NCBI GenBank assembly: GCA_002457315.1 | Contig: NTKI01000004.1 | Span: 1 to 64,000 of the forward strand | Length of the DNA: 64,000 bases | Reading direction: 5' to 3' | Source: Rhodothermaeota bacterium MED-G19 | GTDB taxonomy: Bacteria > Bacteroidota > Bacteroidia > Cytophagales > MED-G16 | Shown: positions 55,655 through 58,146 of the stretch, one piece after another | How the letters are laid out: each line of letters begins with the position of its first letter | Numbering within the stretch: the stretch's first letter is position 1 | Translations under genes and position numbers: made by a program | The notes under the pieces: generated by a model | Databases searched by the model: none | The model's input: the letters and a program-made list of their open reading frames with translations, nothing else | What the model was told of the DNA's origin: nothing

Positions 55655-57379
55655 ATGAAAGATTATGCCTTTGTCGATGTAATTATAAATCTTCCTCTAG
55701 ATTCCTTATATACATATAAAACAAATTATAAAATAAAATTAGGATCTATTGTAAAAGTTCCATTTGGAAATAATAACGAGATAGTAGAAGGAGTTGTTAT
55801 ATCTAACTCTTATATCACGAAGAGACATTATTATATTAAAAAAATAATATCAGTCAAAAACTTTAATGGGCCATTTTCAGAAAATCAAATTAAATTTCTC
55901 AAATGGGCTAGTGAATATTACCTAGTAAGCTTACCTAAAATATTAAACTCCATATTTTCTAAAAAAATATTTGATATTAACAATATAGATAAACCTAAAA
56001 AAATGGGTTTAGCAAAGGAATTAAGTATGAGTAATGATATAAAACTCATAATTAAATACTCAAAAGATATTAAAAAACATATCATAGACAATGTTGAAAC
56101 TAATAAAAAAAACCTTTCACAGTATCTAATCCTTACTCCAAACATTTATCAGTGCCAAGCAGTACACAATAAATTACCGAAAAAAATTAAAGAGAAATGT
56201 TTCATTTATGATTCAAAAACAACATTAAATGATAAATTAAACATATGGAAGAGAGTTGTTGAAAATAAAAGTATAATAATAATTGGAATTAAGTCTGCAA
56301 TATTTTTACCCTTTACAAACTTAAGGAAGATTATTGTAGCAAATGAACAAGATTACTTATATAAAGAGACTGATAGAGTTATAAGATATAACGCAAGAGA
56401 CTGCGCAATAATGTTATCAAAAATTAATAAATGTGACATTGACCTAATAACAGACTCACCTTCTATAGATTCCATATATAACTATCAAAAAGGAAAATTT
56501 AGTTTTCACGATAAAATGAAAAAACTCAATTTAGAAACAGATTTAAATAAGATTTCAATAGTAAACAAGACCAATAAAAAATTATTTTGTTTATTAACAG
56601 AAGAGATAATTAATCAAATTAAAGAATCCATAAATAATAAAGAAAAAATTATAATATACACTCCCTATTCAAAAGATATTAAACCAATACATTCATTTAT
56701 AAAATCTAATATCAAAAAGATAAAATCTATATCGACAGCTAAATCTTCATCAATTACTAGAAATCAACTTATTCAATTTTATGAGGACATAAATGACAAT
56801 AATATAATAATTGGAAATCACTCTATTATTGATAGTTTAGAGAAATTTAAATATAACCTTCTTATACTAATAAATCCAGATAAAATATTTTCTAATATTA
56901 ACTATAAGTCAAATGAAATTTATTTTCAGATTTTATTTAAACTCATAAAAAAGGTCAAAAATGATAAGAATAAAAAATTGTTAATTCAATTATTTCATTC
57001 TGAATATGATAATCTAAATGATATAATAAGACTTAACTATCATGATATTGTAAAAAAAGAAATGATTGAAAGAAAAATTTTTGATTACCCCCCATATAAG
57101 AGACTTATATGTATTGAATTAATTGGAAATAACCTTAATCAGTTAGAGACAAAAGGAGAAAAACTAAGTAAAGAAATAGAAAAGAAGTTTACGTTTTGCA
57201 AAGTATCAGACATAGGGACTGTTAAAAATAAGAAAAGATTAATTTATAAGGTTTTCTTAAAACTAGATAGAGTTAAAAATTTAAAAAGAAATAAAAAAAT
57301 AATATATGAGGAGCTAAAAAAAATAAAATCTAGAAAATCATTTAACAAATATTTGTTAACAATAGATATTGATCCTTAA
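55655..57379 (+). CDS. PriA-like replication-restart protein without ATPase, helicase or zinc motifs
   Basis: The 574-residue protein aligns with PriA at both ends: N-terminal 3'-DNA-binding domain (DVIINLPLDSLYTY, VKVPFGN, FLKWASEYYLVSLPKIL) and C-terminus (YPPYKRL 479-485, ending LLTIDIDP). In the middle the P-loop position reads IIKYSKDIKKH instead of LLHGVTGSGKT (132-142), the DEEH box reads ANEQ (229-232) within IIVANEQD, no zinc-site cysteines exist, and the terminal arginine-finger GRAGR block is absent (IKKVK). It is about 240 residues shorter than flavobacterial PriA. The frame is open throughout, so it looks selected, not decayed. It might load the replicative helicase without unwinding. 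Confidence 0.85.
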   Translation: MKDYAFVDVIINLPLDSLYTYKTNYKIKLGSIVKVPFGNNNEIVEGVVISNSYITKRHYYIKKIISVKNFNGPFSENQIKFLKWASEYYLVSLPKILNSIFSKKIFDINNIDKPKKMGLAKELSMSNDIKLIIKYSKDIKKHIIDNVETNKKNLSQYLILTPNIYQCQAVHNKLPKKIKEKCFIYDSKTTLNDKLNIWKRVVENKSIIIIGIKSAIFLPFTNLRKIIVANEQDYLYKETDRVIRYNARDCAIMLSKINKCDIDLITDSPSIDSIYNYQKGKFSFHDKMKKLNLETDLNKISIVNKTNKKLFCLLTEEIINQIKESINNKEKIIIYTPYSKDIKPIHSFIKSNIKKIKSISTAKSSSITRNQLIQFYEDINDNNIIIGNHSIIDSLEKFKYNLLILINPDKIFSNINYKSNEIYFQILFKLIKKVKNDKNKKLLIQLFHSEYDNLNDIIRLNYHDIVKKEMIERKIFDYPPYKRLICIELIGNNLNQLETKGEKLSKEIEKKFTFCKVSDIGTVKNKKRLIYKVFLKLDRVKNLKRNKKIIYEELKKIKSRKSFNKYLLTIDIDP

Positions 57380-58146
57380 AATTTCCATTTTTCATTAAGA
57401 AATAATAAGCCTCTTTTAGAACTTAAATCAAATTTACATGGCACTATGGAAACATAATTGTTTTTAATAGCCCACTCGTCATTATCTTTACCTTTATCAT
57501 GATTAACAAAGTTACCTACCATCCAATAGTACTCTCTCCCGTACGGATCATGTCTCTTGTCAAAAGTTTCTTCCCATATAGCATTTGCCTGTCTACATAT
57601 CTTAATACCTTTTATATCTTCTGACGAAACAGCAGGAATATTTACATTTAATGCAATTGAATCAGGAATACCATTATTTAAAGCATTATTTACTATTTTT
57701 TTTATGTGCTCTTTTGTATGTTTTAGATAAGCATTTGGATCAAAATCACATAATGAAAATCCGATAGATGGAGTATTTTCAATTGCCCCTTCAATAGCAG
57801 CAGACATAGTTCCTGAATAAAGAACACTTATAGATGAATTACTTCCATGATTAATACCACTAGTTATCAAATCAATATTCCTATTCTTTAGAATATGATG
57901 CTTTGCTATTTTAACACAGTCTGCTGGTGTTCCACTACACTTATATGACTCTATATCTCCAAAAAGATCCGACTTTACTAATCTAAGTTTATCTCCAACA
58001 GTTATTGCATGCCCCATACCAGATTGAGGACTATCTGGAGCAACAACAACAACCTCACCAAATTCAGACATTATGCTTACTAAAAACCTGATTCCTTTAG
58101 AGTCTATTCCATCATCATTAGTAACTAATATTAATGGTTTTTTCAT
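57376..58146 (-). CDS. surE: 5'-nucleotidase/polyphosphatase SurE
   Basis: The 256-residue metal-dependent phosphatase hydrolyses nucleoside 5'-monophosphates. Signatures are ILVTNDDGIDSKGI with the Asp pair, VVAPDSPQSGMGHAITV, CSGTPADCVK, LITSGINHGSN (Asn ligand) and YSGTMSAAIEG. It is the last gene of the dnaG-ribBA run (2 bases after the preceding stop) and its stop codon overlaps the convergent priA-like stop (2 bases). Confidence 0.95.
   Translation of the reverse strand: MKKPLILVTNDDGIDSKGIRFLVSIMSEFGEVVVVAPDSPQSGMGHAITVGDKLRLVKSDLFGDIESYKCSGTPADCVKIAKHHILKNRNIDLITSGINHGSNSSISVLYSGTMSAAIEGAIENTPSIGFSLCDFDPNAYLKHTKEHIKKIVNNALNNGIPDSIALNVNIPAVSSEDIKGIKICRQANAIWEETFDKRHDPYGREYYWMVGNFVNHDKGKDNDEWAIKNNYVSIVPCKFDLSSKRGLLFLNEKWKF

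Follow-up and report, generated by a model that had tools for sequence, protein, structure and literature searches.

Nearly all bacteria conserve the motor of PriA, though E. coli survives without it. The PriA proteins of actinobacteria, represented by the PRK14873 models, are annotated as being without recognisable helicase motifs. A natural pseudohelicase has been described in Deinococcus radiodurans, whose PriA matches motifs I and II poorly, carries an arginine in place of the GKT lysine, and has no ATPase or unwinding activity; it binds single-stranded DNA (ssDNA) and forks, and there is evidence that it contacts DnaB (PMC4504706, 2015). Because that protein is published, a PriA that naturally has no motor is not a new idea. 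The engineered E. coli mutants K230A and K230R likewise are non-motor proteins that still assemble the primosome (PMC10175261, PMC4504706), and the ATPase-dead K230A protein loads DnaB in vitro in a reconstituted assay (PMC10175261).

Here we describe a reading frame of 574 codons at positions 55655-57379 on the forward strand of a 64-kb window (the whole stretch of DNA that was analysed). The frame is intact, and it is the native priA of a marine Cytophagales metagenome-assembled genome (MAG), lying in the neighbourhood rplI-priA-surE. The genes on either side were named from their sequences: rplI (ribosomal protein L9; 54929-55603, forward strand) adjoins priA upstream, an arrangement conserved in family f1, to which the window belongs, and a surE-like gene (57376-58146, reverse strand) is convergent to it. 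The end of the surE-like frame falls inside the stop codon of priA, so that the two genes overlap tail to tail by four bases (57376-57379). The source genome comprises 1.32 Mb in 25 contigs and is 87% complete. The GC content of the priA gene is 22%, and the genomes of this lineage are small and AT-rich.

Like D. radiodurans PriA, this protein is of PriA descent and has non-consensus Walker A and Walker B motifs. However, motif I is gone, motifs II, III, V and VI are replaced, the cysteine-rich zinc region (CRR) and the winged helix are deleted, and the organism belongs to another phylum. The K230A and K230R proteins, in contrast, are engineered point mutants with a full CRR and winged helix, and E. 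coli uses PriB, DnaT and DnaC. The E. coli PriA of structure 6dcr also lacks the winged helix, but it is an engineered protein that keeps its motor and CRR. Against the PRK14873 models of the actinobacterial proteins, the 574-aa protein scores at most 32 bits, far under its scores with PRK05580 models. What is new is the extent of the loss, which involves domains and not only motif residues and above all the zinc domain; new too are the phylum and the presence of another PriA without a motor elsewhere in the order. A literature search for loss of PriA among marine Bacteroidota found no paper.

A preliminary description of this DNA had identified the protein as a PriA homologue that is recognisable at both ends, and profile searches, alignment and structure prediction bear this out. 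The Pfam model PF17764 (PriA_3primeBD) matches aa 8-100 above its cut-off (E = 1.9e-17). PF18074 (PriA_C) matches aa 480-574 over its full model length (E = 2.3e-4) with 22.4 bits against a cut-off of 26.9 bits, and assignment of a C-terminal PriA domain agrees with the alignment and the predicted fold. Among NCBIfam models, NF004066 (PRK05580; E = 1.2e-51) and TIGR00595 (E = 7.5e-44) both match under their equivalog cut-offs, and a profile of the family f1 sequences matches E. coli PriA structures with E of about 1e-37 across the N-terminal domain, HD1 and HD2. An AlphaFold2 model derived from 10 sequences is of medium confidence (pLDDT 70, pTM 0.71). When it was searched with Foldseek, the nine best matches were PriA chains only, headed by fork-bound E. 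coli PriA (8fak; E = 8.3e-27, probability 1.00) and followed by the winged-helix-deleted 6dcr. In a phylogenetic tree, the family f1 sequences form one clade (100/100) among PriAs. We assign the protein to PriA by its sequence, predicted fold and conserved neighbourhood. With motifs I, II, III, V and VI absent, it ranks as a homologue of PriA and is not classed as a PriA helicase.

To describe these losses, alignments were made of the 574-aa protein and its family f1 relatives together with E. coli PriA and 10 Cytophagales PriAs. By alignment and pattern search, 10/10 family f1 sequences have lost superfamily 2 (SF2) helicase motifs I, II, III, V and VI; the patterns for Walker A, CxxC, GRxGR, GTQ[MI] and SATP have no match in any of the ten. 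The canonical rows all have Walker A, four CxxC and GTQ[MI], and the remaining patterns occur in all but a few of them. In the 574-aa protein (all features of which are on the forward strand), a short linker at aa 106-150 (55970-56104) stands in place of the winged helix, the Q motif and motif I. Loss of the P-loop had been reported before, with the site read as YSKDIKKH, and it holds; in the alignment, the position of GITGSGKT is occupied by IKYSKD (aa 133-138), after which three positions are deleted. The replacement of DEEH by ANEQ, the disappearance of the zinc cysteines and the absence of GRAGR, all previously claimed, were confirmed by alignment and pattern search. ANEQ lies at aa 229-232 (56339-56350), the former Walker B/DEEH site, which in the family f1 relatives reads xNEH, xYEN, xYEH or xDEN.

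The losses extend further than had been described. By alignment and pattern search, motif III (GSATP) has also gone, its site reading ITDSPS (56447-56464). The winged helix and its linker lack 76 of 100 E. coli positions, and the CRR lacks 46 of 48 in 8/8 full-length family f1 sequences. The junction left by the CRR deletion in the 574-aa PriA is at about aa 336-341 (56660-56677), and all eight Cys positions are deleted. Motif V (GTQM..K) is replaced by GNHSIID at aa 387-393 (56813-56833), and motif VI with its arginine finger (QVSGRAGR) by FQILFKLIKKVKN (56924-56962); no family f1 row has an arginine in the R587 column. The protein is predicted to be without ATPase activity.

Retention was counted over positions whose conservation among canonical rows is 90% or higher. 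Of these, the degenerate rows retain most in the junction loop (66%), the C-terminal domain (55%), the 3'-end DNA-binding domain (3'BD; 54%) and HD1 Ia-Ib (53%), and fewer in motif II (34%), motif III (31%), HD2 (23%) and motif VI (13%). The 3'BD occupies aa 1-105 (55655-55969), where the alignment shows the pocket residues G38 and K62 (E. coli G37 and K61) to be retained. The C-terminal domain, with YPPYKRL and DIDP, occupies aa 479-574 (57089-57376). The region of the fork-junction (aromatic-rich) loop is aa 231-250, EQDYLYKETDRVIRYNARDC (56345-56404), and we take the stretch YKETDRVIRYNARD to be the published aromatic-rich loop. This stretch follows motif II and, when compared with E. coli PriA, falls in the HD1 region of the fork-junction loop (PMC10175261). 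In the E. coli cryo-EM structure, a loop of this region wedges into the fork junction (PMC10175261).

A pocket for the SSB tail, with five contact residues, has been defined in Klebsiella pneumoniae PriA (PMC5531588), the numbering of which equals that of E. coli minus one. Three of the five are matched by alignment. W84 and Y88 (55904-55918) correspond to K. pneumoniae W82 and Y86 (E. coli 83 and 87) and are both kept in 8/8 family f1 sequences that cover the region. K281 (56495-56497) corresponds to K. pneumoniae K370 (E. coli K371), and this position is K in 9/10 family f1 sequences and R in 1/10. The other two, R697 and Q701 in the C-terminal domain, cannot be aligned reliably.

The intact frame had previously been taken as a sign that the protein is maintained, and measures of selection support this view. 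In close pairs, dN/dS of priA is 0.125 (G000-G010), 0.142, 0.169 and 0.233, and no family f1 copy has an internal stop; priA in this family is under purifying selection. Nine relatives have open frames with the same missing motifs, of which seven are full length (38-54% identity) and two partial (77% and 38%). These relatives, with dN/dS of 0.12-0.23, rule out chance or pseudogene debris. Where measured in the same pairs, dN/dS lies between 0 and 0.051 in surE and between 0 and 0.047 in rplI. Values for priA are thus several times those of either gene, so constraint on it is weaker than on its neighbours. By region, dN/dS is 0.161 in the 3'BD, 0.143 in HD2, 0.160 in the C-terminal domain, 0.393 in the linker and 0.060 in the segment with motif II and the loop (aa 229-250). 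The segment corresponding to the fork-junction wedge of E. coli PriA is the most constrained part of the gene.

These data bear on whether priA might be decaying in streamlined genomes and heading for loss. Such decay would suit small AT-rich genomes and a gene with 22% GC, a dN/dS raised relative to surE, and the observation that two reduced-genome members of the order, G387 and G472, have no real PriA match (E of about 1e-13). However, ten species-level genomes with 38-77% identity carry the gene without an internal stop, dN/dS is well below 1 and is only 0.06 in the loop, and identical losses are common to two genera. We regard decay as largely refuted and very improbable.

The motor-less form was found in 10 of 15 family f1 genomes, in two genera, and each of the ten genomes with an assembled locus has it in the order rplI-priA-surE. 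A scan of the genome contigs with the single 574-aa protein gave no match, and an alignment-based scan gave nine loci. Relatives in public records come from MAGs labelled Flammeovirgaceae, Marinoscillum or Cytophagales and from two isolates, AG-895-E03 and AG-426-P19, whose names resemble those of single-cell genomes. No priA match was found in the five other family f1 genomes (G002, G003, G006, G012 and G014). Because surE is missing from these assemblies and rplI is either absent or truncated by the end of a contig, the locus is considered unassembled, and true loss of priA in the five was rejected. Two of them, G012 and G014 (genus g2), have no match to priA, rplI, surE or a full DnaB, and their DciA matches are below cut-off; this pattern may reflect shared assembly gaps or real divergence.

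A canonical priA elsewhere in the genome would change the meaning of the motor-less gene. With an 873-aa canonical PriA as query, however, no canonical PriA was found in any of the 15 family f1 genomes. The query finds only the motor-less priA and frames of about 1110, 695 and 671 aa, which are the sizes of Mfd, RecG and UvrB. The frames of about 1110 and 695 aa agree in size with matches to the RecG model (RecG over cut-off, and a partial, Mfd-like match). One might still suppose that a canonical PriA hides in unassembled parts, or that the gene is misassembled, given that the window's genome is 87% complete and in 25 contigs. Against this, canonical PriA is missing from 15/15 genomes, and the odds of missing it in all ten gene-holding genomes, calculated from their completeness, are about 1e-8 if misses are independent. 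The gene also recurs under separate public records, including AG-895-E03 and AG-426-P19. An artefact of this kind is scarcely credible.

Of the partner proteins that had been named for a search, DnaB and RecG occur in the family, as does DciA. DnaB was found in the window's genome (E = 3e-109, in a 493-aa frame) and in 8 other family f1 genomes. DciA is also present in the window's genome (E = 6e-12) and was found in 15/15 family f1 genomes, in 13 of them above cut-off. The RecG model matches above cut-off in 10/15 family f1 genomes, but it finds no RecG in the window's own 87%-complete assembly. DnaG is encoded in the window, with matches for its zinc ribbon, catalytic core, Toprim and DnaB-binding domains.

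We consider it likely that the pseudohelicase, the only PriA found in this lineage, still recognises forks and serves, independently of ATP, as a platform for guiding DnaB, probably with DciA. The 3'BD pocket would hold the nascent leading-strand 3' end of an abandoned fork, the HD1 loop would wedge at the fork junction, and the contact residues would bind the SSB tail. The platform could then guide DnaB, probably together with DciA, onto lagging-strand ssDNA without ATP. This motor-less PriA would be unable to open a double-stranded lagging arm, so another helicase or an existing gap would have to supply the ssDNA. The earlier proposal of a loader-only PriA stands in that the protein is non-motor, maintained and lineage-wide, with no canonical backup found; loading itself is a putative role. 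The accompanying analogy with ATPase-dead E. coli PriA applies to the loss of ATPase but does not extend to loss of the CRR (PMC10175261). E. coli PriA requires its CRR to dock PriB and to load DnaB by the PriB-dependent route, and the CRR frames the ssDNA pore together with HD2 and the C-terminal domain (PMC10175261). With the CRR, a domain that E. coli needs is gone, so the mechanism must differ: DnaB has to be recruited through some other surface, and a pore for ssDNA cannot be built in the E. coli manner.

Since the CRR connects E. coli PriA with PriB and with the loading of DnaB (PMC10175261), its loss could also indicate that the protein has been repurposed. Such a protein would not reload DnaB but would bind ssDNA/SSB or forks independently of ATP, for example to protect gaps or hold forks, and the faster evolution of priA than of adjoining genes is in keeping with this. 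However, the strongest constraint falls on the stretch that corresponds to the E. coli fork-junction wedge. Also, no other PriA was found in family f1 and DnaB and DciA are kept, and therefore a restart adaptor is still needed. Repurposing thus seems unlikely to us, and a DnaB-guiding platform is the preferred role.

Other Cytophagales have an ordinary PriA of 800-870 aa. When TIGR00595 was searched over 241 Cytophagales genomes, the family f1 members that hold the gene gave E values of about 1e-25 to 1e-40 and most others 1e-160 to 1e-190. This order-wide search, made also to find other weak PriAs, gave locations for the strongest matches, and a minority of the weak ones was inspected. A second motor-less PriA was observed in G026, of family f13 of the same order (L084:3460-5271, forward strand; GC 42%). 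As in family f1, five motifs are absent (Walker A, DEEH, which reads AQEE, SATP, GTQM and GRAGR) and the winged helix is mostly missing, but in G026 the CRR still has its four CxxC pairs, and the GC content is higher. The start of its 3'BD is in another frame from the remainder; the frame breaks in an A-rich stretch that separates the two, and the break may be an assembly error. The G026 branch exceeds 4 changes per column, and because of such long branches the tree does not separate one shared motor loss from independent losses in G026 and family f1.

Several other genomes have weak or divergent PriA matches. In G332 and G344 (family f9, genus g164), the PriA model gives E of about 1e-84 to 1e-87, compared with the usual 1e-170 in the order; their PriA may be split or diverged. 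G352, G387 and G472 (family f21; 0.7-1.1 Mb, 90-99% complete) have no real PriA match (E of about 1e-13), and other members of that family keep a full PriA; complete loss of priA in these three is possible. In family f36 (genera g71 and g76), the Pfam 3'BD model gives E values of 1e-6 to 1e-13, compared with about 1e-20 to 1e-34 in most Bacteroidota sampled, which suggests that the PriA N-terminus has diverged there.

A broader proposal, which we advance tentatively and with more doubt than confidence, is that a minimal module of 3'BD, junction loop and C-terminal domain suffices for replication restart throughout the lineage. DnaB would then be recruited by a route, most likely via DciA, that dispenses with the PriA motor, the zinc domain and PriB/DnaT, and the motor would have been lost more than once in Cytophagales, before the zinc domain.

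This marine small-genome lineage probably restarts replication with a fork adaptor and not with a helicase. The natural loss of motor, zinc domain and winged helix together, with the fork-contacting parts retained under selection, shows which parts of PriA are dispensable in nature and which are indispensable, and it bears on why the PriA motor is conserved in nearly all bacteria. The protein is also a small, naturally trimmed PriA with which to test how DnaB is reloaded by PriA, perhaps with DciA, in the many bacteria without PriB, DnaT and DnaC.
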